A program made the position numbers and the translations under genes. Positions 1-16,886 of a DNA stretch of 16,886 nucleotides are shown piece after piece (position 1 is the first letter of the stretch; every line of letters starts with the position of its first letter). The notes under the pieces are model-generated. The model was not told the DNA's origin. It ran no database searches and saw only the letters and a list, made by a program, of their open reading frames with translations. The stretch is from Candidatus Brevefilum sp. GTDB lineage: Bacteria > Chloroflexota > Anaerolineae > Anaerolineales > Anaerolineaceae. Location: the NCBI GenBank assembly GCA_007135845.1, contig SLIC01000051.1, positions 1-16,886 on the forward strand, given 5' to 3'.

Positions 1-350
1 CCATCCGCTTCAATCAGCAATGAATAGCCATTTTCAGCACAGAAATCGTGAACGGCCTGCAAAGACCGATCATTCAGACTCGATAATCGCTCCCCTTCAA
101 CCTCTGTTCCGGTGAGCAACACAGTGTTTATGCCTTCATCAATCACCTTTTTAAGCGCTTCGGGTGATGTGAATAAATCATGGTGATCGGCAAATGCTGC
201 TTGCCAGGTACCCAAGTGGGTGGTTGTGGTCAGGACAACTGGCGGAGGCAATTCCCTCGCCAGGGTAAACATGGTGCCGGTCTTTCCTCCTGCACCCACA
301 AACGCAACGGTTTCACCCTGCTTTAAACCAAGTCCCTGGGCGATTTTCAT
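1..350 (-). CDS. yqeC: YqeC-family selenium-dependent hydroxylase accessory protein (partial, C-terminus outside window)
   Basis: About 116 codons are visible; the rest lies beyond base 1. The protein starts MKIAQGLGLKQGE and has a P-loop-like GAGGKT at residues 19-24, a TTTTH stretch at 41-45, and an IEADG ending exactly at the window edge. These three motifs, in this order, are typical of the YqeC family of small nucleotide-binding proteins found beside selenium-dependent molybdenum hydroxylases. Its exact biochemical role is not established; the family is thought to help make or insert the selenium-containing molybdenum site. The ATG lies 6 bases after the YqeB stop codon, so the two are probably co-translated. 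No strong Shine-Dalgarno sequence is seen, only a purine run (AGAAAGAA). Family assignment is confident; function is by family and neighbourhood only. Confidence 0.85.
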   Translation of the reverse strand, partial: MKIAQGLGLKQGETVAFVGAGGKTGTMFTLARELPPPVVLTTTTHLGTWQAAFADHHDLFTSPEALKKVIDEGINTVLLTGTEVEGERLSSLNDRSLQAVHDFCAENGYSLLIEAD

Positions 351-356
351 TTCTTT

Positions 357-1184
357 CTATCGATCCCAACCCTGCACTTCCAGCAGCTTGCTGCGGATTT
401 CGGGTTTAGTCAGCACGGCCTCTAATACGCCACCGCCTATCGCTAAGGACTTTTCTGAAACATACTGGCAACGGAACGCTTCTGAGCGGGGGTCAATGTC
501 CCCAACTTTGGTGCCGGCTTCCACATGCAGCCCAGGGTAGATCAATCCCCTGACCACACCATTAAAGGGCGCTGTCATTACAAGATCACCTACCCGGAGC
601 ACACGATCCCCAGCAGCAACAGTATCACCGATTTCAACAAATGTCTCTACCTGACCCGCAACCGGCGTGTGCAGCACTCGCGCTTGCTGATAATGTCCCA
701 CTTTCTCAGGAATGCCCGTATCTTCCTGGGTACTTCCCTGCCAGTACACCCTTCCCAGGAAGTGACCGCGGTTGGTCTCAACGGCAGCATGGCAATTTTC
801 ACCAGCAGTAAAACCTGGTCCCAACCCAATTAATAACCCAACCATCTCCAGCGGCAATGCAGAACGCACTTTACGCATCCGGGCATCAACCAAAACCAAT
901 GGTCGATGAAGCTGCAACAGCTCCAGCTCGGGATCTACCAGAACAGGCACCTGGTTCGCTTCCCAGCAATGATGCATTTGGTCTGGCGATCCGACCCTCT
1001 GCGCATGCACATCTTCCACCATAACCCCGCCATCAAGCACAGCTTGTGCAAAAGAAACTGAGCGCCGCACCGCCAGGGGCTGGGGTCGTTCAACAACCAA
1101 AACACGGATGCCCACCCGGTGCAGGCGGATCGCCACACCAGTAGCTAAATCTCCGCCGCCCCAGGTGAGCACATAGGATTTCAT
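357..1184 (-). CDS. yqeB: YqeB/EF2563-family selenium-dependent molybdenum hydroxylase system protein
   Basis: A 275-residue protein beginning MKSYVLTWGGGDLATG. The Gly-rich GGGDLATG near residues 9-16 resembles a Rossmann-type nucleotide-binding turn, and the segment around 128-141 (GENCHAAVETNRGH), followed by GRVYWQG, is the conserved core of the YqeB/EF2563 family. The C-terminal half, with PVAGQVETFVEIGDTV and then APFNGVVRG, looks like a small beta-barrel or biotinyl-like fold. The family accompanies selenium-dependent molybdenum hydroxylases; its activity is unknown. I chose the ATG at 1184 rather than an upstream in-frame start at 1244 because the ATG overlaps the stop codon of the preceding molybdopterin subunit as ATGA, and because the family N-terminus is just before the Gly-rich motif. 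It is followed closely by yqeC, a frequent partner. Confidence 0.85.
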   Translation of the reverse strand: MKSYVLTWGGGDLATGVAIRLHRVGIRVLVVERPQPLAVRRSVSFAQAVLDGGVMVEDVHAQRVGSPDQMHHCWEANQVPVLVDPELELLQLHRPLVLVDARMRKVRSALPLEMVGLLIGLGPGFTAGENCHAAVETNRGHFLGRVYWQGSTQEDTGIPEKVGHYQQARVLHTPVAGQVETFVEIGDTVAAGDRVLRVGDLVMTAPFNGVVRGLIYPGLHVEAGTKVGDIDPRSEAFRCQYVSEKSLAIGGGVLEAVLTKPEIRSKLLEVQGWDR

Positions 1185-3409: not shown

Positions 3410-4843
3410 TTATTCCCTTAGATTATCCTGTGATGCACCAGCAAATTCAGGCTGGCTGGCGTTTTCAATGGCTTCGATAATCTTGTAGTATCCTGTGCAC
3501 CGGCACAGGTTCCCCGTGATTGCCTGCCGGATCTCTTCTTGTGATGGAGTCTTGCGCTCCTCCATAAGTTTAACAGCCGACATCACAAAACCTGGCGTAC
3601 AATATCCACACTGAACTGCGCCAAAAGCAACAAATGAATCCTGAACAGGATGCAGAACCTCGCCATCACTCAACCCTTCAATCGTGACGATCTCTGCCCC
3701 GTGTGCCCTGGGTGCCGGCACCAGGCAGCTCATCACTGCCCGGCCATCCAAAAAGACCGTACAGGCACCGCATTCCCCTTCTGCGCAGCCTTCCTTTGTG
3801 CCGGTTAATCCTGCCTCATCCCGGATCAGATTTAACAAGGTTTTTTCAAAACCAGTCTTAAACCGAAATTCCTTTCCATTGATCCAGGTATGGATCTCAT
3901 CTCCCGACCAGGGGATTTTCGATGCCTCAGCATGAAGACCGGTACCCATCAAAAGGATTGGATTGCTGGGAATCTGGTCTTTATCAACCCCATCTCGGAT
4001 CGCTGATAAAGCCCGTTTTGCAATGACACCCATCATATAATCACGGTAATCTGATGAACCCCGAATATCGGAGATAGGTCGAGAAGCTTGGGCGACCAGT
4101 GTTGCTGCTTCAGCAAGGACCTCATCATCTAAAGCATTCCCCTCAAGATACGCCTCGGCTGCCTCTGCATAGATGATCGTTGGCGCAGCCGCACCTAAGG
4201 TAATTTGCGGTTGATGGACAAGTCCGTCTTTGATTTCCAGTAAAACACTGACATTAATCACGGATATCGCTTGTGCTCGACGCAAAGCTGTTTTGATGAA
4301 ATAGGAATGCTGGATCGGTTTGGGTGCTTCGAAGAATATATCTATCATAACTTCATCCGGCGTCATGACAGTTTTGCGTACACCGGTATAAAAATCGGAA
4401 AGTGGAACTGTACGTTCGCCCCGTTTTGAAACCAGCTTGACCTTAGCTCCGAAAGCCATCAGGGGACTGATGGCATCGTTGGCTGGTGAAGCCGTCACCA
4501 GGTTGCCCGCAATCGTGCCCCGGTTGCGGATCTGAGGTGATCCAACTTCCCAACATGCTTGTAAGAGGGCAAAGGCTTTTTCCCGAATAAGCGGTGATGC
4601 AACCACATGGTTATGCGTGACCAAAGGCCCCATGTGTATGATGCCATCTTTATCCTCGACAATATCATCCAAACCGGGAATCCTTGTGATGTCAATAATG
4701 GTTGTTATGCCCTTGCGGACACCACGTTCGATCTCTAAGATCAAATCTGTTCCACCCGCGATAATGCGAGCCGAGTCTCCAGCTTCTGCTAATGCATTTA
4801 CTGCCTCATCAATTGATTCTGCTAAAATAAATTTTTTCCACAT
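3410..4843 (-). CDS. Molybdenum hydroxylase A, fused FAD-binding and [2Fe-2S] electron-transfer subunit
   Basis: A 477-residue fusion of the two small subunits of a xanthine dehydrogenase-type enzyme. Residues 1-285 are the FAD domain, with both flavin-contacting motifs intact: AGGTDL at 29-34 and TIAGN at 110-114, plus the CoxM-type C-terminal domain. Residues 315-465 are the two-cluster iron-sulfur domain. The plant-type [2Fe-2S] cysteines are C353, C358, C361 and C373; the second cluster uses C412, C415, C447 and C449. Electrons would pass from molybdenum through the clusters to FAD and then to an unknown acceptor. FAD first and iron-sulfur second is the reverse of the order in eukaryotic xanthine dehydrogenase and in bacterial XdhA fusions. 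A linker at about 286-314 joins the halves with no stop, so this is a real fusion. It precedes its catalytic subunit directly. Confidence 0.92.
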   Translation of the reverse strand: MWKKFILAESIDEAVNALAEAGDSARIIAGGTDLILEIERGVRKGITTIIDITRIPGLDDIVEDKDGIIHMGPLVTHNHVVASPLIREKAFALLQACWEVGSPQIRNRGTIAGNLVTASPANDAISPLMAFGAKVKLVSKRGERTVPLSDFYTGVRKTVMTPDEVMIDIFFEAPKPIQHSYFIKTALRRAQAISVINVSVLLEIKDGLVHQPQITLGAAAPTIIYAEAAEAYLEGNALDDEVLAEAATLVAQASRPISDIRGSSDYRDYMMGVIAKRALSAIRDGVDKDQIPSNPILLMGTGLHAEASKIPWSGDEIHTWINGKEFRFKTGFEKTLLNLIRDEAGLTGTKEGCAEGECGACTVFLDGRAVMSCLVPAPRAHGAEIVTIEGLSDGEVLHPVQDSFVAFGAVQCGYCTPGFVMSAVKLMEERKTPSQEEIRQAITGNLCRCTGYYKIIEAIENASQPEFAGASQDNLRE

Positions 4844-4861: not shown

Positions 4862-5650
4862 CTATGCTCTCTGAAAATGCTTCTTCATCTGGTTGTAGTG
4901 ATCAATGATCTCTGCCATGACACTGATGGCGATTTCATTCGGTGTTTCTGCGTTAATAAAAATTCCGATAGGCGACTTTATTCTTTCAATCGCCTCTTTG
5001 GAGATACCCTTCTCGATCAGTTTTTCCTGTGTATGCGTCCACCGCCGTTTGGATCCAATCAATCCAATATAGGGTACATTCGTATCTAAGATTGCCGGAA
5101 GCCCTTCGATATCAACATCCACCCCCCTTGTCACCAAGACCATGTAAGTTCTTGGACCCAAATCGATTTTCTCTGGTATCTGGCTCATGGGTACCGGCAG
5201 GTAAAGATCTCCTCCTGGGGTCTCTTCTGGGTTACATAAATCTTCACGATCATCACTGACCACAACCCGGAAACCCAGCCACTTTGCCAGGTGTACAATC
5301 GGCTTGCCAACATGCCCTGCACCAACGACGACAATCGTTGGCAGTTCTAGAAATGGCTCAACAAACACCGTCACCACACCACCACAGATGCCCGCATCAC
5401 CCCGTTCGGGATCAATCATGTCATAAGTCAAGAAACGTGTTTTTCCATCTTTAAACGAAGCCATCGCCTCGTCGAGGACCCGGTACTCCACTTCACCACC
5501 ACCTACCGTACCTTCATAACGGCCATCGCTGTAAACCAGCATTTTGGCACCAGCATGCCGTGGCACAGCACCCTTTGTGTTCACAATCGTGCACAGGACA
5601 ACCGATTTCCCTGCAGTGATTGCTTGATTTAATCGTTTTATGATATCCAT
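4862..5650 (-). CDS. xdhC: XdhC/CoxI-family molybdenum cofactor maturation protein
   Basis: A 262-residue protein of the XdhC/CoxI family, which binds molybdenum cofactor, favours its sulfuration and delivers it to xanthine dehydrogenase-type enzymes. The N-terminal domain carries NTKGAVPRHAGAKM at 24-37, GTVGGGEVE at 47-55 and GICGG at 87-91. The C-terminal Rossmann domain has VGAGHVGKP at 109-117, GLIGSKRRW at 196-204 and the closing signature SPIGIFINAETPNEIAISV at 226-244. Both halves of the family are present, so this is a full-length member. The ATG lies 2 bases after the pyrophosphatase stop, with GAGGA 6 bases ahead. Lying between the two hydroxylases, it may serve both. In selenium-type systems XdhC relatives may handle selenium rather than sulfur; the sequence does not decide this. 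Confidence 0.9.
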   Translation of the reverse strand: MDIIKRLNQAITAGKSVVLCTIVNTKGAVPRHAGAKMLVYSDGRYEGTVGGGEVEYRVLDEAMASFKDGKTRFLTYDMIDPERGDAGICGGVVTVFVEPFLELPTIVVVGAGHVGKPIVHLAKWLGFRVVVSDDREDLCNPEETPGGDLYLPVPMSQIPEKIDLGPRTYMVLVTRGVDVDIEGLPAILDTNVPYIGLIGSKRRWTHTQEKLIEKGISKEAIERIKSPIGIFINAETPNEIAISVMAEIIDHYNQMKKHFQRA

Positions 5651-5652: not shown

Positions 5653-7038
5653 TTATTCCTCGATCAGGCTCAGAACAACAGGTAAGAGTTGTTTCTTCCG
5701 CGATACCACACCCTCCGCCATGTATGTGCCATCAGAAAGCCGTCGATAGGGTAGATCATGTAAAGCAACGGGCGGATCGACCATCAACAAGCGACTGACA
5801 CCCTTAACCACATCTGTCACCATCAACATCGCAAAGTCCAGGCTCCTGCGTTCTTTTAATTCCTGTAAGGCTTGACACAATGGCTTTAAGAAATCATTGA
5901 GTTCGTGCAGGTCGGACACTTCAGCCTGTGCAATGGCAAAACGGACGTTTTCTGTTTCGTATTTCTTCATATCCGTCGTGACCACATCTTCAGGATCTCG
6001 GCTTGCTAAACCAGTACCTGCAGTCAGCACTTTCTGACCGTAGGATTGCAGGTCCTCATCAGCGAGTGGTGTGCCCCACACGAATGCCCAGCGAGCCAGC
6101 CTTTCTCCTGCTGCCTGATCACGGGGCGTGGTTGTCGGGGATGTCAAAATTAATGTATCAGAAAGCAAACCGGCCAGCATTAAGCCAGCCAAATCAGGTG
6201 GTGCACTCAAGCCGGCGTCTTCAATTAGTTCTGAAACCAGTGTGCTGGTACTGCCAACAATATCAACTGTAAAACGAATCGGCTCATGCGTAGAAGAATT
6301 ACCCAGGCGATGATGGTCCAGAATCTCAACCAACTCGGCTTCTTCAATCGACATTAAAGCCTGCTGTGGTTCGTTATGATCCACCAGGATGATTTTCAAA
6401 CGTGGTGGATCCAGAAGATCCCGCTGTCGACAAATCCCCAGGTAGCGCTGATTCTCATCCAATACCCAGAACTCATCAACATCATCCCTAAGCAGCCGCT
6501 TGATCACGTCTCGAATCCGTGTTGTTGCCGTGTAGCGAGCAACATCCGTTTCTGCAGCTTTACGGCAGGGTATTTCAAGCAGCTCTGCCAGGGTCATATT
6601 CTGGTAACGTGGGTTTGGTCCGACCATTTTACTCAGGAAATTGAACAGGGTTTTACCGGAAATCAAACCGTAAGGCGTTCCGTCCTTGTTGACAACAGGC
6701 GCAACGCCGCCCGTTCGGCTGAGAATAGCCCAAGCTTCACTCAGGGGGCTTTCAGGTGTGACGGTATCAAAACGGCGCATCACGGATTCGAACCGCGGTG
6801 AAGCATCATTGAACAGCATAGGCGGTTCGAGTCCTAGCGTTCTTAATACCCAGGCGGTTTGTAAGTTGATCGCGCCTGCCCGGGCAGGGATGGCATTAAG
6901 GCCATCCCGCTCACGCAGCAGCCAGGCATATCCCATGGCAGAGGCAACCGCGTCGGTATCTGGGTTCACATGCCCAATAACAAAAACCTGGTTTTCTGTC
7001 CCAATGTTGGGAGAACTAGGAACACGATATCCAGCCAA
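5653..7038 (-). CDS. ppaC: CBS-domain family II (manganese-dependent, DHH) inorganic pyrophosphatase
   Basis: A 461-residue soluble pyrophosphatase that hydrolyses PPi to two phosphates. DHH domain motifs are GHVNPDTDA at 22-30 (H23, D27, D29), VDHNE at 219-223, DHHR at 241-244 and LSDT at 292-295 (D294), matching the metal ligands of the family. The C-terminal DHHA2 domain ends with SRKKQLLP at 446-453, which binds PPi. Residues of about 82-210, inserted after the first motif, form a CBS pair (GLISGKTLF near 124-132, GICRQRDLL near 201-209), so activity is probably tuned by adenine nucleotides as in known CBS pyrophosphatases. The DRTGG domain seen in some members is absent. The start is TTG, 2 bases after the XdhD-like stop; no ATG or GTG lies between it and the first metal motif. 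Why it sits in this operon is inference: CofC and cofactor cytidylation release PPi. Confidence 0.92.
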   Translation of the reverse strand: MAGYRVPSSPNIGTENQVFVIGHVNPDTDAVASAMGYAWLLRERDGLNAIPARAGAINLQTAWVLRTLGLEPPMLFNDASPRFESVMRRFDTVTPESPLSEAWAILSRTGGVAPVVNKDGTPYGLISGKTLFNFLSKMVGPNPRYQNMTLAELLEIPCRKAAETDVARYTATTRIRDVIKRLLRDDVDEFWVLDENQRYLGICRQRDLLDPPRLKIILVDHNEPQQALMSIEEAELVEILDHHRLGNSSTHEPIRFTVDIVGSTSTLVSELIEDAGLSAPPDLAGLMLAGLLSDTLILTSPTTTPRDQAAGERLARWAFVWGTPLADEDLQSYGQKVLTAGTGLASRDPEDVVTTDMKKYETENVRFAIAQAEVSDLHELNDFLKPLCQALQELKERRSLDFAMLMVTDVVKGVSRLLMVDPPVALHDLPYRRLSDGTYMAEGVVSRKKQLLPVVLSLIEE

Positions 7039-7040: not shown

Positions 7041-10000
7041 CTAAACCTTGCTTTCTGTTGCTCGCTGTTCAGTTAAATCACGCCACACATCCTCTGGCAG
7101 AGCAGGTATTTTATGAAGTGATACACCGCACGCGTCTAGAATGGCATTGCCAACAGCAGGGGCAACACCGTCCAATGGGATTTCTGCCACAGCTTTAGCG
7201 CCGTATGGATGCGAAGGCTCGTAGGTTTCCACAAAAATTGTGGTTAACTCGGGCATTTCATCGGAACGGAAAATATGGTAATCAACAAAATCCCGCTCCC
7301 GTGGTTGGCCGTTTTCATCGTAAACCATCTCTTCACAGACAGCATAACCTAATGACTGCGACATGCCGCCTTCAATCTGTCCAGAGGCAGTAATTGGGTT
7401 AATGATCACACCTGAATCCACCGCCATCACCAGCTTATCAACGGTAACCATACCGGAATCAGTATCCACCGTGACTTCTGCAAATTGTGCAGCAAAAGGC
7501 GGCGGTGCAACCGGGGACATATGCGACCCAACAGCCATTATTTGTAACTGGTCTGTCTTGTGAAGTGCATGCAGAGCAATCTCATCAAAACCAAATGATT
7601 CACCAGAGGGTGCAGTGGCTTTCCGATCCTCCAGTTTGATATCGTTCACATCGACTTCCTTGTCAACCTCAGCAAACATTAAAACCGCCCGTTCGCGAAT
7701 CTGCTGGGCAACCTGCTCAGCGGCTTTAACGACTGCTGCACCGGAAATATACGTTGTGCTTGAGGCATAGGCACCCTTATCAAAGGGAGTGAAATCTGTA
7801 TCTGAAGAATAGACAAGGATATCTTCCAGGGGTACGCCCAGAGTCTCCGCTGCCATTTGCCCAAGAACCGTATCTGAACCAGTTCCCAGGTCTGTTGCAC
7901 CTACAAGAAGGTTAAAGGACCCATCATCATTCATCTTAATGCTGGCACCGCCCATGTCGAGATAGGGGATGGCTGTCCCTTGCATTACCATGGCAATCCC
8001 AATACCTTTACGCAGGTGGGCTGCACCAGGAACATGATGCCAGGCTTCGTTGTTATATTTATGGTCCCACCCTATTGCCATTCTGCCCTGGTTGACACAT
8101 TCCTCTAAACCGACTGTGTAAATTGTCTCTGGTTTGGGCTCACGACCTTCGCTCCATTCTGTGCTGAAGGGATGAATTTCTCCCGATCGCAATGCATTCT
8201 TCAAACGGAAGGCAATCGGGTCCAGGTTAAGCTCTCGGGCAATCGTTTCCATATGACGTTCAACGGGCCAAAAGCCCTGGGGCACGCCATAACCCCGATA
8301 AGCACCTGATGGCACAGTGTTGGTGTAGACCACATCCGCGTAGAAGCGTATATTTGGATGCTCCCTGTAAGAACCATCACCGACATAAAGTGCCATGGCT
8401 TTATGACCGGTATTCCCAGTAACGGTGAGTGCATGACAGCCTAAAGCTCCGGTATCGCTCAGGCAGTACATCTCGTTGGCAGTGATCGTGCCATCTTCTT
8501 TCACACCGGTTTTGAGACGGACCTTCATCGGGTGCCTCGTGCGTGCACCTATGAATTCTTCTTCCCTGGTCATTTCATAGATTACGGGCCGTCCAGTAGC
8601 AATCGTCAGGTGTGCAGCCACATCTTCTATAAGCACCTCCTGTTTGCCACCAAAACCACCACCAATCCTGGGTTTGATAACCCGAATGCGTTTGATTGGC
8701 AGATCCAGGACGGGTGCAATTTGGCGACGCACATGGAATGGCACCTGAGTGCTGGTACGAATAACCAACCGGTCATCCTCATCCCAATAAGTCACCACAA
8801 CATGCGGCTCAATATGTGCCTGCTGCACCTTGGGGACGATATATTCTGCTTCATAAATTCGATCTGCTTCTTTAAACCCTTGCTCAACATCACCGATATC
8901 AACCCGGATTTCTGCTGCCAGGTTGCGGGATGGGTCTGAATCAGCAAAATTCACATATTCTTCTTCATCATGTATGCGGATCGCGCCTTCATCCATTGCC
9001 TGGGCAGGATCGATGATTGCGGGCAAAATTTCATAATCAACCTCGATCAACGACAAAGCTTTTTCGGCAATCTCAGCAGTTTCAGCCGCTACAAAGGCAA
9101 CGCGATCTCCCACAAAACGCACTTTTTTATCCAACGAAAATGTGTCCAAGGGTCCGGGGATAGGATGGGATTGACCGGCAGTTGAGTACACCACACGGGG
9201 GATATCTTTCCAGGTCAAGACTGCCGCCACACCACGTAAGGCTTCCGCAGCAGAGGTTTCAATATTTTTTATAACCGCATGGGCATGGGGACTGCGTAAA
9301 ACTTTGGCAACCAGCAAATCTCGCTTGTCAAAATCAGCCGTAAAGGCCGGCTTGCCCTGGACAAGCTTAACTGCATCAACTTTTGGTTCGCCGTGTCCAA
9401 CGGTTTTCATTGGGGAATGCGCATCCAAAACCTTCAATTTCGGAAAGACTCTGGTCTCTGTCATCGTACCCGTGCCAGATGTGAGCGGGGTACCGTCGAA
9501 ACCAGGGCTTTTATCGAAATCGATCACATCTCGTATCTCAATAGGTTCTTCGATGGGTGGAACTTCTTCTCCTCGTAACGTGGCTGCAGCACGCAGAACA
9601 GCCTGAACCGGTTTAAGATAACCAGTGCAGCGGCACAAGACGCCCGAAAGCACTTCCCGTACCTCATCTTCAGTGGGTGAAGGATTTTGCTCAATTAAGG
9701 CTTTTGCTACCAACACCATCGCGGGTGTGCAATAACCACATTGAATTGCGCCTGTGTCCACAAAAGCCTGTTGAATGATATGCAAGCCATCAGTTTTGCG
9801 CCAACCTTGCTCGGGATGTTCGCCGAGGCCTTCAATTGTTTGAATGAGATGTCCCTCTGCCTGGGCCGTTAACATGGTACAGCTATTAACTGGCCTGCCA
9901 TCAAAAAGAATTGCGCATGCACCACATTCACCTTTTTGACAGCCACCGCTTTTCACGCTGAAATATCCAAGACAGCGAAGCGTATCCATCAACCGCTCAC

Positions 10001-10055
10001 CGGCAGGTACATTTAATGGAATATCTTGATGATTAATGTTTAATGTAATTCTCAT
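7041..10055 (-). CDS. xdhD: Molybdenum hydroxylase B, fused [2Fe-2S]-molybdopterin catalytic subunit (XdhD-like)
   Basis: A 1004-residue fusion. Residues 1-165 form the iron-sulfur domain with all eight cysteines: C39, C44, C47, C59, then C106, C109, C141, C143. A linker at about 166-215 leads to the hammerhead domain (SPHAHA near 255, VRFVGDRVA near 312-320). Molybdopterin motifs are GGGFGGKQ at 465-472, GAYRGYGVPQ at 584-593, TDLGTGSDT at 721-729, GAYASSTTY at 761-769 and GAKAVAEIP at 952-960, with E958 as the expected base. Architecture, the STQVPFHVRRQ segment near 435-445 and the short FAD partner upstream match the E. coli YgfM-XdhD pair, once proposed as selenate reductase or hypoxanthine oxidase subunits. 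E. coli XdhD, as I recall it, has lost its cluster cysteines; this protein keeps them. The ATG follows the FAD-subunit stop by 1 base (TGAAATG), with GAGGT 5 bases ahead. Substrate unknown. Confidence 0.9.
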   Translation of the reverse strand: MRITLNINHQDIPLNVPAGERLMDTLRCLGYFSVKSGGCQKGECGACAILFDGRPVNSCTMLTAQAEGHLIQTIEGLGEHPEQGWRKTDGLHIIQQAFVDTGAIQCGYCTPAMVLVAKALIEQNPSPTEDEVREVLSGVLCRCTGYLKPVQAVLRAAATLRGEEVPPIEEPIEIRDVIDFDKSPGFDGTPLTSGTGTMTETRVFPKLKVLDAHSPMKTVGHGEPKVDAVKLVQGKPAFTADFDKRDLLVAKVLRSPHAHAVIKNIETSAAEALRGVAAVLTWKDIPRVVYSTAGQSHPIPGPLDTFSLDKKVRFVGDRVAFVAAETAEIAEKALSLIEVDYEILPAIIDPAQAMDEGAIRIHDEEEYVNFADSDPSRNLAAEIRVDIGDVEQGFKEADRIYEAEYIVPKVQQAHIEPHVVVTYWDEDDRLVIRTSTQVPFHVRRQIAPVLDLPIKRIRVIKPRIGGGFGGKQEVLIEDVAAHLTIATGRPVIYEMTREEEFIGARTRHPMKVRLKTGVKEDGTITANEMYCLSDTGALGCHALTVTGNTGHKAMALYVGDGSYREHPNIRFYADVVYTNTVPSGAYRGYGVPQGFWPVERHMETIARELNLDPIAFRLKNALRSGEIHPFSTEWSEGREPKPETIYTVGLEECVNQGRMAIGWDHKYNNEAWHHVPGAAHLRKGIGIAMVMQGTAIPYLDMGGASIKMNDDGSFNLLVGATDLGTGSDTVLGQMAAETLGVPLEDILVYSSDTDFTPFDKGAYASSTTYISGAAVVKAAEQVAQQIRERAVLMFAEVDKEVDVNDIKLEDRKATAPSGESFGFDEIALHALHKTDQLQIMAVGSHMSPVAPPPFAAQFAEVTVDTDSGMVTVDKLVMAVDSGVIINPITASGQIEGGMSQSLGYAVCEEMVYDENGQPRERDFVDYHIFRSDEMPELTTIFVETYEPSHPYGAKAVAEIPLDGVAPAVGNAILDACGVSLHKIPALPEDVWRDLTEQRATESKV

Positions 10056-10056: not shown

Positions 10057-10830
10057 TCAGACCTCGCTTTCTTTTAAACTATCGATGCGTTCCAGGCAGC
10101 GTAAGGCAAGTTTAGCCGCAACATCTCGCCGGTACTGTGCCGTCGCCCAATGATCATTTGCTTCATAAACCGCATTGTGGCTGGCAAAATCCACACCACT
10201 GCTGTCCGGCCCATCCATGGCAACGATTGGTGCTTGACCCGTTCCACCGAGTACAACCCGCGTTCTACCCGAGCCCCATTGCGCTATGGCGACCACCAAA
10301 ATCGGGCGATCTTTGGGTGAACGTGCCACATACTCAAAAGCCACATGCAACTGAGGATACCAGGCAATCTCGGTCAGTAGAACGGCTGGAGGTAATTGAT
10401 CTCTCAACGGCAGCCAATCGCCCAAAAGTACCTTTTGACTTTCAGGCTCCCAGGTTAATGCCGCATCCAGGGCAAGCAACACCGTCGTCAGGATGGAACG
10501 CCCATCACTGGTGATCAACCAACCGGCCAGAGTCGCCATATTGCGTATGTTCTCAGCGGCATCGATTTTTATCGCTCGTTTTATTTCTTGATCAACCTTT
10601 GGGTGGGTTAATAAATGATCCAATCGGGTCATCGCTCCGATAGCAATGGTCTGGTCTGTAGTGCTAATTTGATCCAACCCAGCTTCCTGTAAATCCACCA
10701 CGCTAAAATCACCAGATTGATATCGGCTCAGGTTGGTACCACCTCCCAGTGGTTTTCGATTTTTTCCTTCCTCAGTCAATAATGAAATAGCTTCATCAAG
10801 CGAGGTTGGTCTCAAGTATTCTCGTATCAT
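10057..10830 (-). CDS. ygfM: Molybdenum hydroxylase B, FAD-binding subunit (YgfM-like), with altered flavin motif
   Basis: A 257-residue protein, shorter than CoxM/CutM subunits (about 285-295) and close to YgfM. It starts [15 protein letters not shown], typical of the family. The first flavin motif is GGGTNL (about 29-34) in place of AGGTDL. The second, usually TIGGN followed by a small-residue run, is here TLAGW in the IRNMATLAGWLITSDGRS stretch (about 95-112), so the Gly-Asn that contacts flavin phosphate is lost. Whether FAD still binds is open. It would pass electrons from the iron-sulfur clusters of the downstream XdhD-like protein to NAD(P)+, F420 or a protein acceptor. Its ATG overlaps the thioesterase stop (ATGA) and a GAGGAGG ribosome site lies just ahead, so expression is coupled. 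Confidence 0.82.
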   Translation of the reverse strand: MIREYLRPTSLDEAISLLTEEGKNRKPLGGGTNLSRYQSGDFSVVDLQEAGLDQISTTDQTIAIGAMTRLDHLLTHPKVDQEIKRAIKIDAAENIRNMATLAGWLITSDGRSILTTVLLALDAALTWEPESQKVLLGDWLPLRDQLPPAVLLTEIAWYPQLHVAFEYVARSPKDRPILVVAIAQWGSGRTRVVLGGTGQAPIVAMDGPDSSGVDFASHNAVYEANDHWATAQYRRDVAAKLALRCLERIDSLKESEV

Positions 10831-11306
10831 GCTGCCTCCTCATCAGGATAAACACGCCAACCCAATTCTTCTGGATTGACATCCGCCAATCGCTCCTCAG
10901 GAATATCGACCAAAACCAGTTCAGCGTCGGCCAGAACTTCACCATTCATATTCTGGATTTCACTGTGGGCGTAGGACACTCTTCCACGGCGATCACCTGC
11001 TTCACCGATCACAATCAGGTCTGTGTCCGTCGGGACGGGCAAGCGATAACGCACGTTCAATTGGGCAGTGACCAAAAATCGATCTGGTTCAAGCATATGT
11101 GCCCGACCGCCGCACTCATCCAGGATTGCAGCGATAATCCCACCATGAACAACCCCCGGGTATCCTTCGTAGTCTGACGATACCCGTAGGTCCACTTGCA
11201 CCTTTCCAGGAGCAATTGTATAAAAATTTAATTTCAACCCAGCCGGGTTCTCCCTACCGCAAACAAAGCAGTTTCTCGAACCCGGCTGCTTTTGGAACGT
11301 TTTCAC
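10827..11306 (-). CDS. PaaI-family (hotdog fold) thioesterase
   Basis: A 159-residue protein with a PaaI/4HBT hotdog domain. The core signature [13 protein letters not shown] at about 52-64 carries the family HGG turn (54-56) and an acidic catalytic candidate, D63 or E64. Near the N-terminus is [16 protein letters not shown], a segment with a CxxC pair (C13, C16) common in this thioesterase subgroup. It probably hydrolyses an acyl- or aryl-CoA thioester in the cytosol; the substrate cannot be read from the sequence. The start is GTG and overlaps the stop of the luciferase-like gene as GTGA; the end overlaps the FAD subunit start. A thioesterase is not a usual member of selenium-hydroxylase clusters, which hints at a CoA-linked intermediate or a housekeeping role. 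Fold confident, role unknown. Confidence 0.85.
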
Positions 11307-12304
11307 TTTGTGGCAAAGGTATCAATCAGGACCTTAACATTTCCACCGACCGGATAGAGGATCGGGCAGGTGGCACCATTGTTCATATACTCCTGCACCT
11401 TCTTCTTAGCTTCATCGGGGGTACCGCTGGCGGTAATGCGGTGAATCAAATCATCGGGGACCAGGTGCTTGGCCTGTTGGATTTGCTCATGAGTCGCAGG
11501 CCAGCCTAAGATTGACTGAATCTGTTGAACGATATCCATGGAGACGCCAGATGCCTTGGCAATATGCGGCTGCTGCGCCAGGTATTGAGTCAGCAGTTCA
11601 CGGCTGGTTTCGATTGCTTGATCACCATCTTCATCGACTGAACACACAACCAGCTGCGGCCGGTCCAGATCGTCCAAAGTACGGCCTGAGGCTTTTAGCC
11701 CCTTTTTCAACTCATCAATCGCCCGTTCATTGTAAGATGGCGGAACACAATAGTTAAGAACAACACCATCAGCAATCTTACCGGTCAACTCAAGCATTTT
11801 TGGCCCGGTAGCCCCAATCATAATGGGAACATTACGGGGTTCCCGCCTGCCGTGGACCACATCAAGCTCAATATCCTTGACCTGCACAAATTCACCCTCA
11901 AATGTCACTCGCTCCATATTCAGCAAGCGGCGCAGGACAACGATCGTTTCTTCCATTGCCTTTAAGGGGCTCTTTCGATCAATACCAACATTCTTCGCCA
12001 GGGGATCCCACCATGCTCCAATGCCACAGATAACCCTGTCAGGAGCCAGGTCATCCAGGGTCAGAAATGTTGACGCCAGCAATCCTATATTTCGAGTCCA
12101 GTTATTGATCACGCCAGATCCAACCTTGATTTCTTCTGTTACCGCAGCATAGGCAGCCATCGGGACAATCGCATCCCGAACCAATCGGCTTTCTGCTTGC
12201 CAAACGGCTTCAAATCCGCGTTCCTCAGCATATTTCGTATAATCCAGTCCATCTCGCAGATCATGTGCATCCTGTAAATATAGTGCAACTCTTTCCAATT
12301 TCAT
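11303..12304 (-). CDS. F420-dependent luciferase-like (LLM) oxidoreductase, methylene-H4MPT reductase-like
   Basis: A 333-residue single-domain TIM-barrel protein of the bacterial luciferase-like family, of the group resembling F420-dependent methylenetetrahydromethanopterin reductase (Mer). Seen in the sequence: [12 protein letters not shown] at about 61-72, at the place where Mer-like enzymes have a non-prolyl cis bond and a flavin/F420 contact; [12 protein letters not shown] near 96-107; and [21 protein letters not shown] at about 150-170, the typical phosphate-binding strand-loop. It probably moves a hydride between F420 and an organic substrate. True Mer function is not implied, since no other methanopterin genes are present. 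I chose the ATG at 12304 over an in-frame start at 12394 because AAGGAG lies 7 bases ahead and the family N-terminus starts here. Its place directly after cofC strongly supports F420 rather than FMN as cofactor. Confidence 0.85.
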
Positions 12305-12335: not shown

Positions 12336-12950
12336 TTAAGTTGAGATCGGTAATAAACTTGTTGAACGGAGGATATCATAATCCTCCGGCACATCTAGAT
12401 CTAAAGCAATTTTCTCATTTTCATAAACGATCACCTCGGCGCCTTTTTGCGCTGCCAGGTCACAATGTTTACTGAAAGAATCCATACCAAACGAGAAAGT
12501 GATCAGGTCTGCCGGATTGATAAAAAGCATGTTTGTCCCTTGACGTCGTCTGTCGGGGCTGATCACCATCAGGGGTGGATGGGTACGTTGGGCAAGAAAG
12601 TCTTCAACATCCTGGGGGGTCAGCATTGGCAGATCTGCTGGGACAATTAAGACCCCTTCTTTGGAAAAGACATTTGAGAATAGCGATGCTCTTCGTAAAG
12701 CATTATTCAATTCCGGAGTACCGTTTTCGGTAACCGTCCGGACTTTCTTTTCCCGAGCTTCAGTTAATACATGTGAATCTCTGCTGACGACAAGGATCTC
12801 AGAAATGGCATTTACTTGTAATAAAACATCTATTGTGTTTGTGAATAAGTGGTAATTTAATCGGGAGCGTTCATCTTCAGTTAAGATTTCCGATAGTCGT
12901 GATTTTCCACGACGCAAAGGTTTGACTGGTACGATTGCCCAAAGGCTCAT
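12336..12950 (-). CDS. cofC: CofC/FbiD, phospholactate (or phosphoenolpyruvate) guanylyltransferase
   Basis: A 204-residue GTP-dependent nucleotidyltransferase of F420 biosynthesis. It joins GMP to 2-phospho-L-lactate, phosphoenolpyruvate or 3-phosphoglycerate, releasing PPi, and hands the unstable product to CofD. Motifs: [13 protein letters not shown] at about 8-20 (nucleotide binding), PADLPML near the middle (metal and base site), [19 protein letters not shown] and [10 protein letters not shown] near the end, all typical CofC features and distinct from the MobA/MocA signature. The three-carbon substrate cannot be assigned from what I can see. The ATG at 12950 lies 4 bases after the cofD stop (TAAACCTATG). 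I rejected an upstream start inside cofD because family members begin at this position. Confidence 0.92.
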
Positions 12951-12954: not shown

Positions 12955-13899
12955 TTAGTGACTCCTGGCAAGGACCTCATCGCCAAATTCGAGGATCTCC
13001 TCTGCCAAGCGGATGCGGTCCCGTTCAACATTCATTATTATATTGGTGAGTAATGTAATTATATGCCAACCGTGAATTTTTTCCAATTCTTCTTGATCTT
13101 GATTGTCAAACACAAATCCTCTCAAGAAATTCCGATAATGAAATGCTACAGCAGAAGCAGAGGGTTCAAAACCCAATTCACGGTACATCTTAGCTGCTGG
13201 TCCCTTTAAGGATTTTCCAGCAACCAATGGTGACACAGCAATTACAACCTTATCCATTATAGCCGGCAGGTATCCAGGCACTGACAGGATCGGATCAATA
13301 CTTACCCAGGGATTAGAAGGAGTCAGTATGATCAAGTCAGCTTGATCGATGGCTGCCAGCGCACCAGGGGCTGGTCTCGCCTGTTCAACACCCTGGAAAT
13401 CAAAAGACTCGACCACGGGTTCACACGCTTTCTGAACAAAATATGTCTGAAAGCCAAGCGAACCCTGGTCGACTGTGTGAACGATGGTCCGCACAGGATC
13501 ATCACTCATTGGGAAGACCCGATGCTCCACACCCCATGCGTCACAAAGCGATTGGGTCACATCTGATAAAGTTTTACCCAGAGCGAGTTGACTGGTTCGA
13601 TAGAGATGTGTAGCCAGGTCTCTATCGCCTAATCGAAACCAATCCGGTCCACCCAGGTTTTGTACTGCGTCAAAAACCACCCAGGTCTCATCTCGCTGCC
13701 CCCACCCTGTAACGGGATTGGCAAGGCCAGCCAGTGTATAACATACGGTATCCAAATCAGGAGAAATATTTAAGCCGCAATACTCAAAATCATCACCGGT
13801 GTTGACGATAATACTCAGCTCATCAGGTGGAAGAAGCGCAGCCAAACCATCAACGAGTTTTGCGCCACCCACACCACCAGCCAGAGCTAAAATTTTCAA
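12955..13899 (-). CDS. cofD: CofD, 2-phospho-L-lactate/phosphoenolpyruvyl transferase
   Basis: A 314-residue transferase that moves the phospholactyl or phosphoenolpyruvyl group from the GMP-activated donor to the deazaflavin Fo, giving F420-0 or dehydro-F420-0. Motifs: AGGVGGAK at about 7-14, VNTGDD at 32-37, GLNISPDLDTV just after, and TPSNPWVSIDP in the middle, with RDRIRLAEEIL near the C-terminus; these cover the nucleotide and Fo sites of the family. The start is most likely TTG at 13899, because AAGGAG sits 6 bases ahead and the protein then opens MKILALAGGVGG as in relatives. A TTG seven codons upstream would put the ribosome site inside the gene. It lies 11 bases after the 2H phosphoesterase and just before cofC, its direct supplier. 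Confidence 0.94.
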   Translation of the reverse strand: MKILALAGGVGGAKLVDGLAALLPPDELSIIVNTGDDFEYCGLNISPDLDTVCYTLAGLANPVTGWGQRDETWVVFDAVQNLGGPDWFRLGDRDLATHLYRTSQLALGKTLSDVTQSLCDAWGVEHRVFPMSDDPVRTIVHTVDQGSLGFQTYFVQKACEPVVESFDFQGVEQARPAPGALAAIDQADLIILTPSNPWVSIDPILSVPGYLPAIMDKVVIAVSPLVAGKSLKGPAAKMYRELGFEPSASAVAFHYRNFLRGFVFDNQDQEELEKIHGWHIITLLTNIIMNVERDRIRLAEEILEFGDEVLARSH

Positions 13900-13905
13900 G
13901 AGATA

Positions 13906-13911
13906 CTCCTT
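13906..13911 (-). promoter_or_regulatory. Ribosome binding site deciding the TTG start of cofD
   Basis: AAGGAG on the minus strand, 6 bases before TTG at 13899. It overlaps the stop codon of the 2H phosphoesterase gene by one base, so the two genes are probably translationally linked. Confidence 0.85.
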
Positions 13912-14450
13912 TATCCGCAAAAACGGAAACGATTCAAAGCTTCGTTCTTTGGATCAGACCCTTGCTCGACCAGGATCATATTGTCAATAGAAACTGATAT
14001 ATCTATTGTCTCAAAAGCAAGCAAATCCAGGGCGCACGCCAGGTTGATTGATGATAAATCATTCACTGCCAAAGTAATGTGAGGCATCCAGTAAAACGGT
14101 TCATAATATCGGTTCGGCCGATTAGCAAATGCTGGAACTTGATCCCAAACCTGGTTATGGATGTCGATCATCACTTGTGTTTTCACCAACGGCAAGTACA
14201 AAACTGGGCGAACACCTGTAAAGATCCCCAAACCAAAGGAATGTGTCGTAAACACACAGTTTTCAGCAACGATAGCACTCACAATTTTTGCAGTTGATTG
14301 AATGTCAAGATCCTCTGCAACAAACCAGGTTAGATGCGGTGTCGGCAGGTCATAGATCGCTTCCAGGCCGCATAAATCTCGTAATTTTTGCCATAAAATC
14401 CGTACAACTTCCGTTGAATGTGTATCTAGTTCACTAATAATCGCATACAT
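13911..14450 (-). CDS. 2H phosphoesterase-family (2'-5' RNA ligase-like) protein
   Basis: A 179-residue protein with the two His-x-Thr motifs that define the 2H phosphoesterase superfamily: H39-L-T41 in TPHLTWF and H124-I-T126 in MPHITLAV, 85 residues apart as expected for the two lobes of this fold. Members hydrolyse or form 2',5' or 2',3'-cyclic phosphodiester bonds in RNA or nucleotides, or act on ADP-ribose cyclic phosphate. The target here is unknown. It lies between cofE (7-base gap) and cofD (11-base gap), in the middle of the F420 genes. A role in processing or proofreading a phosphodiester intermediate of F420 synthesis is possible but pure inference. The ATG at 14450 has GAGG 6 bases ahead, formed from the cofE stop region. 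Confidence 0.82.
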   Translation of the reverse strand: MYAIISELDTHSTEVVRILWQKLRDLCGLEAIYDLPTPHLTWFVAEDLDIQSTAKIVSAIVAENCVFTTHSFGLGIFTGVRPVLYLPLVKTQVMIDIHNQVWDQVPAFANRPNRYYEPFYWMPHITLAVNDLSSINLACALDLLAFETIDISVSIDNMILVEQGSDPKNEALNRFRFCG

Positions 14451-14457: not shown

Positions 14458-15225
14458 TCACCTGAACAAGTCTTCTTCTTTCGGACGGATCAGCTCAGAC
14501 AACGAACCTTCACGTAAGGGATATGGAAAACCCCGGGCGAGCACAACAGGTAAGCCCTCACGAGCCTGTCCCATGAGCAAAGAAGCTCCGGCAGCCAATT
14601 CATCGCTTGCGGCAACCTGGGTGATTCGTAACTGGTAGTCATATAGATCGGGTTCACCGCGCAAATCAACCAGGCCAGGTAAACCCGATAAGCCAATTGT
14701 TGTCCCGGTTGTCCCCAACCGCCAGGCGCGTCCATGCGAATCAATGATCAAAACACCGATCCGGCAGCCGTATTTTCCTTCCAATTTTTTTCTGATGACC
14801 CCGGCAGACTCATTGGGGTCTTCAGGTAATAGCAAGACCCAATCCTCGGGTTCGCCCCACGGTCCTGAAACATTGGAATGATCGATGCCCGCATTCGCAC
14901 TGATGAAACCCAGACGGTGCTCAACAATGATCAAGTTGTTCCGAACACGCAAGACATCCTGGCTCTCAGAAAGGATCAATTCAATCATACGCGGGTCTTT
15001 GCCTGTGACGCGCGCATAATCTAGGGCAGCCTCAGAGGGTATTACCGTTGTAAGATTGACCAAGCGATCCTCTGCTTTAGAGACGATTTTCTGAGCAATG
15101 ACGATAATATCGCCATCCAAGAGCGTTATTCCATTCCGCACAAGGGTCTCAGCTATCAACGCGGCAAGATCATCGCCCGGGGACACCAGCGGCAGTCCCT
15201 TAAGAGCAATTAAGGTCAGATCCAT
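14458..15225 (-). CDS. cofE: CofE, coenzyme F420-0:L-glutamate ligase (stand-alone)
   Basis: A 255-residue GTP-dependent ligase that adds gamma-linked glutamates to F420-0. GDIIVIAQKIVSKAE at about 38-52 is the family hallmark; NAGIDHSNVSG and later IDSHGRAWRLGTTGTTIG supply metal and GTP contacts. Length matches archaeal single-domain CofE (about 250); the C-terminal nitroreductase-like domain of mycobacterial FbiB, which reduces dehydro-F420, is missing. The ATG at 15225 follows the npdG stop by 1 base (TAATATG). I rejected an in-frame start at 15270 that would overlap npdG, since the family begins with a short beta strand such as DLTLIAL. No good Shine-Dalgarno is seen, so it probably relies on coupling to npdG. 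Confidence 0.93.
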   Translation of the reverse strand: MDLTLIALKGLPLVSPGDDLAALIAETLVRNGITLLDGDIIVIAQKIVSKAEDRLVNLTTVIPSEAALDYARVTGKDPRMIELILSESQDVLRVRNNLIIVEHRLGFISANAGIDHSNVSGPWGEPEDWVLLLPEDPNESAGVIRKKLEGKYGCRIGVLIIDSHGRAWRLGTTGTTIGLSGLPGLVDLRGEPDLYDYQLRITQVAASDELAAGASLLMGQAREGLPVVLARGFPYPLREGSLSELIRPKEEDLFR

Positions 15226-15226
15226 A

Positions 15227-15913
15227 TTATTTTTGGTCAGGAATACCTGTGATGCGGATACCAGAGGCATGCACCTTGTGTTGGATATTTAATCCAATTA
15301 ATACCGAGGTCAATCCTTCCACCACCACGGCGTTTTCAATTGGTCCAGCATCCCATCCCTTTAATCCTGTATCCTCTACCAGGCCAATGACGACTTTCCG
15401 GGCATCTTTTCCTGTACCACAAACTAAAACATCACAATCTGTATCACCCTGTCCCAGCAAACGCTCATGGGAGATATTTTGGAACGCATCCACAACCTGG
15501 CAAGCATCTCCCAGAATGGCCTGGGCTTCCTGTGCGGCAGATCCTGCCTCGGGCATCTGTACTTTGCTAACCTTTGGCGGAACAATCGGAACGACGACAT
15601 CAATCACGATTTTTCCTTGCAAGGAATCTTTTAAGTCCTCCAAAGTGGCTTTGTGACCTGCATACGGAACAGCAATCACGGCAATATCACATGCCTCAAC
15701 CGCAGACCGGTTATCCATCCCCTGTAAGTTTTCGGGTTGAAATCCCATAAAATCTGCAAGCTCTTCAACTGCCGTCTGGGCTTTCTCATATTGTCTTGAA
15801 CCAATAATCACGCGATGCCCTGCCTGGAGCCAGCGGTAAGCTAACCCTTTGCCTTCTTTCCCAGTCCCACCAACGATCCCCAGTGTGTAAATCTTCTTTG
15901 TATTGTCAGTCAT
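15227..15913 (-). CDS. npdG: NADPH-dependent F420 reductase (F420H2:NADP oxidoreductase)
   Basis: A 228-residue single-domain enzyme that moves a hydride between NADP(H) and F420. The Rossmann motif GIVGGTGKEGKGLA at 12-25 is the family form of the dinucleotide turn, followed by IIGSR at 36-40, where Ser-Arg marks NADPH preference. Further family features are VIAVPYAGH near the middle and NAVVVEGLTSVLIGLN near the C-terminus. In bacteria it usually supplies F420H2 to F420-dependent reductases, here possibly the LLM enzyme at 11303-12304; in fermenters it can run the other way to make NADPH. The ATG at 15913 has AAGGAAA 5 bases ahead and follows the SsnA-like gene by 35 bases, the largest gap in the window. 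Confidence 0.94.
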   Translation of the reverse strand: MTDNTKKIYTLGIVGGTGKEGKGLAYRWLQAGHRVIIGSRQYEKAQTAVEELADFMGFQPENLQGMDNRSAVEACDIAVIAVPYAGHKATLEDLKDSLQGKIVIDVVVPIVPPKVSKVQMPEAGSAAQEAQAILGDACQVVDAFQNISHERLLGQGDTDCDVLVCGTGKDARKVVIGLVEDTGLKGWDAGPIENAVVVEGLTSVLIGLNIQHKVHASGIRITGIPDQK

Positions 15914-15918
15914 ATTAG

Positions 15919-15925
15919 TTTCCTT
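15919..15925 (-). promoter_or_regulatory. Ribosome binding site of npdG
   Basis: AAGGAAA on the minus strand, 5 bases before the ATG at 15913. The 35-base gap around it (15914-15948) is AT-rich, but I see no terminator hairpin and no convincing promoter boxes. Confidence 0.7.
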
Positions 15926-15948
15926 ATCTTCTACGAATATTTTTTATC

Positions 15949-16886
15949 TCATTTCTGAGTTGCGATATCTTCAAAGCGTTTCCAAATGGATGTTGAAATT
16001 TCCATGGCTTTAGCTGCGATTTCAGCCTCATCGAGGGTTAACAAATTCCGGCGATACATTAAAGGCTTTCCGGCAACGATGGTTGCGGTGATCATGCTCT
16101 CTTGAAATCCAAACAGGATTTGCCAGGGCAGGTTTCCGGCTACCAACGGTGTAAATGGATGGTAATCCACAAAGATTAAATCGGCCGCAGCACCTTCAGA
16201 TATCTCACCAACCGGCAAGCCGTCAAACAATGCTGTCACCAGGGCGGCGTTGTTTTCAACTGCCAACTGCGTGATGGTGTAACCGCCCATCCGCTGGGGA
16301 TCCCTGTGGTAAAGTTTGTGCAGCAGGTATGCTTCTTTCCACTCTTGCCACATGGTATTTGAAAATCCATCATTACCCATCCCCACCCGCATTCCAGCAG
16401 CGAGCATATCTTCAATGGGTGCAACACCAACTGCGTTGTTCATGTTTGAACGCGGCTGATGTGTAAGCCAGGTCTGTGTCTCCGCCAGGCGGGCAATTTC
16501 ACCTTCATCGAGATGGACGCCGTGGGCCAGGATCGATTCAGGTCTCAAAATACCAAATTGATCAAGCCGATGCGCCACACGCTTACCAGAAGTTTCCAGG
16601 CTGAAAACCTGGTCAGCAATGCCCTCAGCAGCATGGATGTGAAACCCAATCCCAGGCGGGCAGAGCTCATTTGCGCGAGCCAGGGTTTCGTCCGAGAGGG
16701 TCAGACTGGCATGTAAGCCAAAATGTGCTCGCAGGTTGGCATCTTCGGGGGCTTTGTTTTTCACTCGCTCGATGAAACGTAGGTTTTCTTGTAAACCCTG
16801 CTCTGCTTTTTCAACACCGTCTCGATCAGTCACCTCATAACACAGCGAAGCTCGCAGACCAGCTTGGTTAACCGTCTCAGCAATGA
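15949..16886 (-). CDS. ssnA: SsnA-type amidohydrolase (partial, N-terminus outside window)
   Basis: About 312 C-terminal residues of a protein expected to be near 440. The frame is open to the window edge: residues before a GTG at 16833 read GLRASLCYEVTDRDG, continuous with the SsnA segment that normally reads YEVSDR, so that GTG is internal and not a start. Metal-site motifs of the ATZ/TRZ-like (guanine deaminase, chlorohydrolase) amidohydrolases are visible: HIHAAEG at about 16641-16621, AHGVH near 16527-16513 and a GNDGFSN aspartate near 16371; the first HxH motif lies outside. SsnA accompanies YgfM and XdhD-type hydroxylases in enterobacteria and clostridia and probably deaminates a purine or related heterocycle, but no substrate is proven. 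It is the first visible gene of the array. Confidence 0.88.
   Translation of the reverse strand, partial: IAETVNQAGLRASLCYEVTDRDGVEKAEQGLQENLRFIERVKNKAPEDANLRAHFGLHASLTLSDETLARANELCPPGIGFHIHAAEGIADQVFSLETSGKRVAHRLDQFGILRPESILAHGVHLDEGEIARLAETQTWLTHQPRSNMNNAVGVAPIEDMLAAGMRVGMGNDGFSNTMWQEWKEAYLLHKLYHRDPQRMGGYTITQLAVENNAALVTALFDGLPVGEISEGAAADLIFVDYHPFTPLVAGNLPWQILFGFQESMITATIVAGKPLMYRRNLLTLDEAEIAAKAMEISTSIWKRFEDIATQK

Follow-up and report, generated by a model that had tools for sequence, protein, structure and literature searches.

The window analyzed here, the whole 16,886 nucleotides of contig SLIC01000051.1 from a Candidatus Brevefilum sp. assembly (GCA_007135845.1), combines genes for the assembly and reduction of the redox cofactor F420 with two molybdenum (Mo) hydroxylases and the amidohydrolase SsnA. 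We propose that these genes probably encode an anaerobic reductive degradation of purines of the E. coli and Clostridium type, in which the second reduction has moved from NADH to F420. The enzyme for that step would be a luciferase-like F420-dependent oxidoreductase, called LLM here, which we infer to reduce yanthine (2,8-dioxopurine). Our basis for this proposal is gene content, conserved gene order, co-occurrence across genomes, and protein fold.

The overall pathway is established for the E. coli proteins: XdhD-YgfM reduces urate to yanthine with NADH, and YgfK and SsnA convert yanthine to ureidomethylhydantoin (Li et al. 2025, PMC12507026). The same study reports that Chloroflexota have no YgfK or UacX near SsnA, but instead a luciferase-family, putatively F420-dependent protein, and it already predicts an F420-dependent yanthine reductase in this phylum. 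An earlier note on the window made from its letters alone (the sequence-only reading) knew of no described system joining F420 genes to such hydroxylases; a connection of LLM with SsnA has been published as a prediction, but the F420-assembly genes go unmentioned in the main text of that study, where neither "cofD" nor "npdG" occurs. What is new here is the operon shared with F420 assembly and reduction, the genome-wide association of SsnA, LLM and XdhD, and the apparent lack of an FO synthase.

In E. coli K-12 the gene order is ygfK-ssnA-ygfM-xdhD. In the window it is ssnA, the F420 genes, LLM, a thioesterase-like gene, ygfM and xdhD; that is, the F420 block lies between ssnA and ygfM, and ygfK is gone. 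YgfK over its cut-off is found neither in the window nor in the related genomes searched (0/16 and 0/25); UacX was not searched as a family. In the proposed pathway, the second hydroxylase (an FAD/iron-sulfur (FeS) subunit and a Mo subunit) would oxidize xanthine to urate, and the XdhD-YgfM-like enzyme would take an oxygen off urate to give yanthine. CofC, CofD and CofE would make F420 from FO, and NpdG would reduce it with NADPH. LLM would then move a hydride from F420H2 to yanthine, with loss of aromaticity, and SsnA would open the dihydropurine ring to ureidomethylhydantoin, drawing the reduction forward. NpdG and LLM would take the place of the NADH-dependent YgfK. XdhC, YqeB and YqeC would mature the Mo cofactor, and a pyrophosphatase would clear pyrophosphate from nucleotidyl transfer. 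The xanthine oxidation, the LLM step with its F420 dependence (also predicted in PMC12507026), and the tie between F420 supply and the pathway are the parts that we infer. The sixteen genes, all on the minus strand from 16884 down to 3, are as follows.

15949..16884, minus: ssnA, amidohydrolase, 5′ end cut by the window; the fragment scores 302 bits with SsnA model NF005540 and 282 bits with TIGR03314
15227..15913, minus: npdG (Fno), NADPH:F420 oxidoreductase; TIGR01915 201 bits, cut-off 149.8
14458..15225, minus: cofE, F420-0:gamma-glutamyl ligase; TIGR01916 264 bits, cut-off 180.65; start refined (first ATG of the frame at 15270)
13911..14450, minus: 2H-phosphoesterase or 2′-5′ RNA ligase-like; PF13563 38.9 bits, cut-off 27
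12955..13920, minus: cofD, 2-phospho-L-lactate transferase; TIGR01819 320 bits, cut-off 257.45
12336..12950, minus: cofC, 2-phospho-L-lactate (or PEP) guanylyltransferase; TIGR03552 154 bits, cut-off 105; start refined
11303..12304, minus: LLM, luciferase-like F420-dependent oxidoreductase, proposed yanthine reductase; PF00296; start refined from relatives
10827..11306, minus: hotdog-fold thioesterase-like; PF03061 33.3 bits, cut-off 20.6
10057..10830, minus: ygfM-like FAD subunit; PF00941; TIGR03312 58 bits, below 241.5; 25% identity to E. coli YgfM
7041..10055, minus: xdhD-like fused FeS-Mo subunit, proposed urate reductase; TIGR03313 696 bits, below cut-off 1101.9
5653..7038, minus: CBS-domain Mn-dependent inorganic pyrophosphatase; NF011443 327.5 bits, cut-off 335; DHH, CBS and DHHA2 domains
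4862..5650, minus: xdhC-type Mo-cofactor maturation factor; PF13478, PF02625; NF045664 233 bits, below cut-off 350
3410..4843, minus: fused FAD and 2Fe-2S subunit of the second, xanthine-dehydrogenase-like hydroxylase; PF00941, PF03450, PF01799
1181..3391, minus: Mo subunit of the second hydroxylase, proposed for xanthine to urate; PucD-like, TIGR03196 559.5 bits, below 783.65
357..1184, minus: yqeB; TIGR03309 301 bits, cut-off 220; start refined
3..350, minus: yqeC, 3′ end cut by the window; PF19842 54.7 bits, cut-off 27.6; below the NCBIfam cut-off

With refined starts, neighboring genes are spaced from a 10-base overlap to a 35-base gap, in agreement with the earlier count of sixteen co-directional genes with gaps of at most 35 bases. 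The operon given there as 350..16886 is present, but yqeC (3..350) falls outside those limits; and while the genes named there match their families, the first one, ssnA, had been left without a name although it is key to function. Judged from the sequence, this is the layout of one operon. The thioesterase-like and ygfM-like genes overlap by 4 bases, which leaves no intergenic space for a promoter at that junction, the one where the sequence-only reading had considered a separate transcript start. Promoter-like sites (17, against a shuffle mean of 20.5, sd 4.5) and terminator-like sites (17, against 16.9, sd 4.2) are not enriched in the window; scans at this chance level cannot settle transcription. 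Rfam and tRNA scans of the window gave no match. NCBIfam cut-offs are passed by NpdG, CofE, CofD, CofC and YqeB; LLM (luciferase-like), XdhC, and the hydroxylase subunits (Mo, FAD and FeS) are recognized as members of their families, with scores below the equivalog cut-offs. Full-length SsnA orthologs in loci L005 and L064 are over the TIGR03314 cut-off (472 and 501 vs. 455.5).

The nearest loci to the window come from Brevefilum and other Anaerolineaceae metagenome-assembled genomes (MAGs). In the closest three (L001-L003) LLM is 91-92% identical to that of the window, and cofD of L001 is 75% identical. The run from ssnA to yqeC is also found in relatives, as seen in the joined views L005/L082, L006/L083 and L009/L084, where ssnA opens the run beside opposite-strand genes and yqeC, of 444-447 residues, closes it. 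In L082-L084, L087 and L088 yqeC encodes 442-447 residues, and a MocA-like part follows it in the L082 protein.

All statements at the level of genomes rest on the genomes of relatives, rather than on the window's own. Searching 121 Chloroflexota genomes with LLM (E-value 1e-90) matched 22, of which 21 have an ortholog (at least 67% identity) and G113 has only a 50% paralog. SsnA and CofD were tested in 80 of the 121 genomes, namely the 22 matched by LLM and 58 of the 99 others. We observe SsnA in all 21 genomes with an LLM ortholog, and in 4 of the 59 others (Fisher p 1e-15, kinship ignored). CofD is present in 50 of the 80 genomes, and among those, SsnA is found in 21/21 with LLM vs. 1/29 without (Fisher p 3e-13, kinship likewise ignored), while CofD occurs with neither LLM nor SsnA in 28 genomes. 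Across these 80 genomes LLM tracks SsnA better than it tracks CofD. The correlation is not made by linkage alone, because 9 of the 21 LLM genomes have ssnA and LLM on separate contigs. An xdhD-like gene is present in all 16 locus-anchored genomes and in 19/21 of the LLM genomes (14 at 71% identity or more, 5 at 51-62%), compared with 1 of the 4 SsnA genomes without LLM, and 6 of the 55 genomes without both LLM ortholog and SsnA, all at 48% identity or less.

We surveyed gene order in 80 loci anchored on cofD. LLM lies downstream of cofD in 72 of them and is missing in 3, the contig being too short in 5. The gene ssnA lies upstream in 56 loci, downstream in 6, is absent in 6, and the contig is too short in 12. 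Of the 72 loci with LLM, 27 have an xdhD-like gene in the 9 kb downstream of it, another 27 have none within at least 8 kb, and in 18 the contig is too short. The core is thus ssnA-npdG-cofE-cofD-cofC-LLM, and 50% of the informative loci have the hydroxylase half attached to it. This is a conserved order, not an accident. In some relatives the downstream distance to the hydroxylase half is greater, with the strand unchanged: about 9 kb in G128, 17 kb in G021 and 24 kb in G044. In others this half is on another contig or far off, often still with the pyrophosphatase and xdhC behind xdhD. The sequence-only reading would have counted a wide separation of the two halves in related genomes against itself; the halves are far apart in many relatives, yet both are still in the same genomes.

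Could two unrelated gene sets, one for F420 supply and one for purine oxidation, have been fused by chance in a single lineage, with F420 serving many enzymes? Two facts would fit: the halves are apart in many relatives, and CofD exists without LLM or SsnA in more than a third of the genomes tested. But the same pieces recur together across Anaerolineae in differing orders, and the joint presence of LLM, SsnA and the xdhD-like gene extends to genomes where they are not linked, so we regard a chance fusion as rather improbable.

Several genes come and go around the core. A nitroreductase similar to the C-terminal domain of FbiB (below its cut-off) stands between cofE and cofD in 40/80 loci, and a PPOX-class F420-dependent protein (over its cut-off) in 22/80; both are absent from the window, which has the 2H-phosphoesterase-like gene in their place, a gene found by tblastn in 20/80 loci. 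A small pyrophosphatase-like protein (below the Pfam cut-off) stands by cofE in 6/80 loci (e.g., L024:6373-6732), and the CBS-type Mn pyrophosphatase of the window (5653-7038) travels with xdhD. Upstream of ssnA, 32/80 loci have a NACHT-HEAT protein of about 845 residues (e.g., L068:3103-5643), preceded by beta-lactamase-like and zinc-ribbon coiled-coil proteins, co-directional with ssnA. In L016, L018, L024, L029, L040, L049 and L054, the thioesterase and ygfM-like genes are not near xdhD but have a PreP-like M16 peptidase and a DNA methylase as neighbors.

The AlphaFold2 model of LLM (mean pLDDT 87.4, pTM 0.86) has as best Foldseek match the Mer of Methanocaldococcus jannaschii (TM 0.82, 29% identity), which is also the nearest solved structure by sequence. 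LLM could then be a Mer-kind F420-dependent methylene-tetrahydrofolate (or methanopterin) reductase, a one-carbon enzyme merely stored beside purine genes. Mer is the best NCBIfam model for LLM, and its name is given to LLM in several database sources. No protein of the cluster is more conserved than LLM (median identity to the window 78.8%). On the other hand, LLM scores below the Mer cut-offs (184 vs. 276 bits, and 174 vs. 348.7). The pterin-site residues of M. jannaschii Mer include the catalytic Glu6, Asp96 and Phe233 (PMC11094777); read from alignments, the latter two are replaced in LLM, Asp96 by Trp99 and Phe233 by Gln240. The Glu6 position falls outside the LLM alignment, and the LLM consensus at residues 7-12 contains no Glu; since L8-Y9-L10-Q11-D12 is invariant in 49 aligned LLM sequences, there is no Glu near that position. 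Moreover, the presence of LLM follows that of SsnA from one genome to the next, a pattern not required of a one-carbon enzyme. On the pterin-site residues and the genome distribution we reject LLM as a Mer, and consider the one-carbon reading quite improbable. A homology search in a large protein set added no context: the best 120 of at least 8000 matches are all at least 83% identical and are often named "methylenetetrahydromethanopterin reductase".

Aligned over its full length (1022 columns), the xdhD-like protein shares 36% identity with E. coli XdhD, and it has the same fused FeS-Mo layout. Its Mo part is closer to XdhD (40%) than to XdhA (36%). It shares with XdhD a GTG motif where XdhA and the second Mo subunit of the window have GQG, and an E-I-x-x-[DN]-G motif is common to it and XdhD. 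In a tree, E. coli XdhD nests among the SsnA-linked Mo subunits and XdhA falls outside, with 99/97 support, but with long E. coli branches and a program warning. The best match to a solved structure is 4-hydroxybenzoyl-CoA reductase. That enzyme is a reductive dehydroxylase. Layout, motifs, and tree favor the XdhD type for this putative urate reductase.

The sequence-only reading had suggested that F420 is either the reductant of a hydroxylase product or a hydroxylase's electron acceptor. The first suggestion fits the prediction in PMC12507026 and the co-occurrence of LLM with SsnA. The second is without support: Pfam recognizes no domains in the hydroxylase subunits other than those for FAD, 2Fe-2S, and Mo. 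A broader form would make F420 the electron carrier of a Mo hydroxylase (accepting electrons when xanthine or an aldehyde is oxidized, or donating them when urate is reduced), leaving LLM to other work. The layout of the window suggests cotranscription of F420 and hydroxylase genes, and they are adjacent in half of the 54 loci with enough sequence; but the other half keep the F420-LLM-ssnA part with no hydroxylase nearby, the FAD subunits have a standard FAD domain and no recognized F420-binding domain, and E. coli XdhD-YgfM uses NADH (PMC12507026). We consider this carrier role very unlikely.

The hydroxylases had also been called selenium-type. YqeB over its cut-off and SelD in 24/24 genomes speak for it, but the Mo subunits score far below the cut-offs of the selenium models (696 vs. 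1101.9; 442 and 462 vs. 830.45). SelD mostly has an in-frame TGA, and so it may serve selenoproteins; being present in every genome, it does not discriminate. A second selD copy in G001, G003, G004, G008 and G014 lies in an open frame of 685-752 residues with no in-frame TGA, perhaps a fusion.

The neighborhood in relatives ties the operon to purines. As an example, genome G008 has a single-strand run of about 39 kb that goes from purine deaminases through yqeC. It starts with an 8-oxoguanine deaminase and an adenine deaminase (both over cut-off), carbamoyltransferases, and a BMP-type ABC transporter; continues with two genes of the pyridoxal phosphate (PLP)-lyase family, a D-hydantoinase (over cut-off), ssnA, the F420 genes, and LLM; and ends with ygfM, xdhD, pyrophosphatase, xdhC, the second hydroxylase, yqeB, and yqeC. 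Genome G016 has the same set plus a carbamate kinase, interrupted by one opposite-strand frame. In G100 and G132, which have no YgfK, ssnA is found with xdhD and with YgeY-like, carbamate-kinase-like, YgeW-like, and PLP-dependent genes, while LLM is on another contig; the G100 cluster also has a hydantoinase. The near relative G001 has a second cluster with an amidohydrolase, YgeY, a GntR regulator, and YgeW-like, amino-acid-kinase-family, and PLP genes. A divergent member of the PLP-lyase family (PF00291) is a repeated neighbor of SsnA or of YgeW/YgeY-like genes (L125:1252-2718, L128:15446-16909, L129:3066-4526, L089:6826-8121, L090:3116-4495); together with a threonine-synthase-like one, it may substitute for YgeX.

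A number of observations weigh against our proposal. The enzyme activities are known from E. coli proteins, not from Chloroflexota proteins, and the xdhD-like protein is below the XdhD-model cut-off. The F420/ssnA half and the hydroxylase half are apart in many genomes, and two LLM genomes (G051 and G053) have no xdhD match at 1e-150. SsnA occurs without LLM in G018, G031 and G035, and also in G060, which has ssnA, an xdhD-type Mo subunit, and a YgeW-like gene, but neither LLM (at 1e-90) nor YgfK was found there. The window has no hydantoinase, YgeY, YgeW, or lyase; among 16 relatives, YgeX is over cut-off in 2 and YgeY in 6; and in G008 the carbamoyltransferase that resembles YgeW scores 177, against a YgeW cut-off of 500. 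Locus L094 has an FMN alpha-hydroxyacid-dehydrogenase-like gene between ssnA and xdhD. The apparent lack of CofH, discussed below, also counts against it. Finally, 7/80 loci (L019, L022, L028, L047, L058, L061, L069) and also L107 have a fused PreT-PreA/dihydropyrimidine-dehydrogenase (DPD)-like gene, usually between cofC and ssnA, and in G044 it lies beside a second ssnA and LLM. In layout this gene is similar to YgfK, which is pig-PydA-like, and it may carry out the reduction in those loci. The idea that LLM replaces YgfK everywhere is weakened by these loci and by G060. Locus L107 has two ssnA genes in one cluster, one adjoining npdG and the other between the DPD-like gene and LLM.

The DPD-like gene also bears on the question of the substrate. 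The operon might degrade some other N-heterocycle, be it a pyrimidine, another oxopurine or xanthine itself, and LLM would then be the F420-dependent counterpart of dihydropyrimidine dehydrogenase. A D-hydantoinase/dihydropyrimidinase adjoins ssnA in 3/80 loci (L032, L041, L067), and the E. coli downstream set is incomplete. However, the DPD-like gene is in a minority of loci only, two purine deaminases head the G008 run, the Mo subunit is of XdhD type throughout, and YgeW-like, carbamate kinase, and YgeY genes are part of the relatives' clusters. We find a different substrate unlikely, and keep uric acid reduction as the preferred reading.

If F420 is used in this pathway, where does it come from? 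The window has the steps after FO (CofC, CofD, and CofE, all over cut-off) and the reduction (NpdG). FO synthesis is common to all known F420 pathways (PMC8498797). We searched for the FO synthase subunit CofH (TIGR03551, E-value 1e-40 or better; CofG was not searched) in 40 genomes that carry SsnA or the cluster, most of which have CofD. This search uses a fixed threshold on MAGs that may be incomplete. Only two genomes (G104 and G035) have CofH; there is none in the window, and none in the 16 locus-anchored genomes, which include the isolate Anaerolinea thermolimosa. The search is not blind to distant relatives, because it matched 6 of 14 control genomes, 3 of them over the cut-off. A homology search with the CofH of G104 found CofH in some named Chloroflexi, and in Ardenticatenales- and Anaerolinea-labelled entries, so its absence does not extend to the phylum as a whole.

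The claim that F420 is made on demand for the pathway needs correction, because the operon contains only the post-FO steps and the reduction. If the absence of CofH is real, FO may be salvaged or made by an unknown enzyme. We give not quite an even chance to the full combination, F420-dependent purine breakdown without a known FO synthase, the deazaflavin core being taken from neighbors (FO auxotrophy) or made by an unknown enzyme. If true, a vitamin-like redox cofactor would be salvaged and then completed locally to serve a single catabolic reaction. It also raises the more general question of the source of the F420 core in bacteria without CofH.

A 2021 review states that experimental studies of F420-dependent reductases had been confined, among bacteria, to a well-studied group that does not include Chloroflexi (PMC8498797). 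That review mentions no purine role for Fht, the terms "purine", "xanthine", "uric", and "molybd" do not occur in it, and our literature search for F420 together with Anaerolineae and cofD found nothing. The operon offers a concrete substrate pathway, a dedicated reductase, a hydrolase partner, and a supply of reductant. There is a cultured species with the locus, Anaerolinea thermolimosa (L064), which makes the reading testable. If it is true, F420 has taken on the most difficult step in breaking down uric acid anaerobically, the one at which aromaticity is lost.

Three known systems provide a comparison. LLM is like Mer in its fold and in belonging to the F420-dependent luciferase-like family, and unlike it in its score below the cut-off and in its pterin site (PMC11094777). 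Fht, the F420H2-dependent picrate reductase, is of the same superfamily and passes a hydride from F420H2 to an aromatic ring, as proposed for LLM; unlike LLM, it is known from Actinomycetales, for nitroaromatics (PMC8498797). The reductive uric-acid cluster of E. coli and Clostridioides difficile (PMC12507026) differs from the window in having YgfK or UacX; in the window, npdG, cofE, cofD, cofC, and LLM lie between ssnA and ygfM. It is like the window in SsnA, an XdhD-YgfM-like enzyme, YqeB, and YqeC, and like the window's relatives in HyuA-, YgeW-, and YgeY-like genes.

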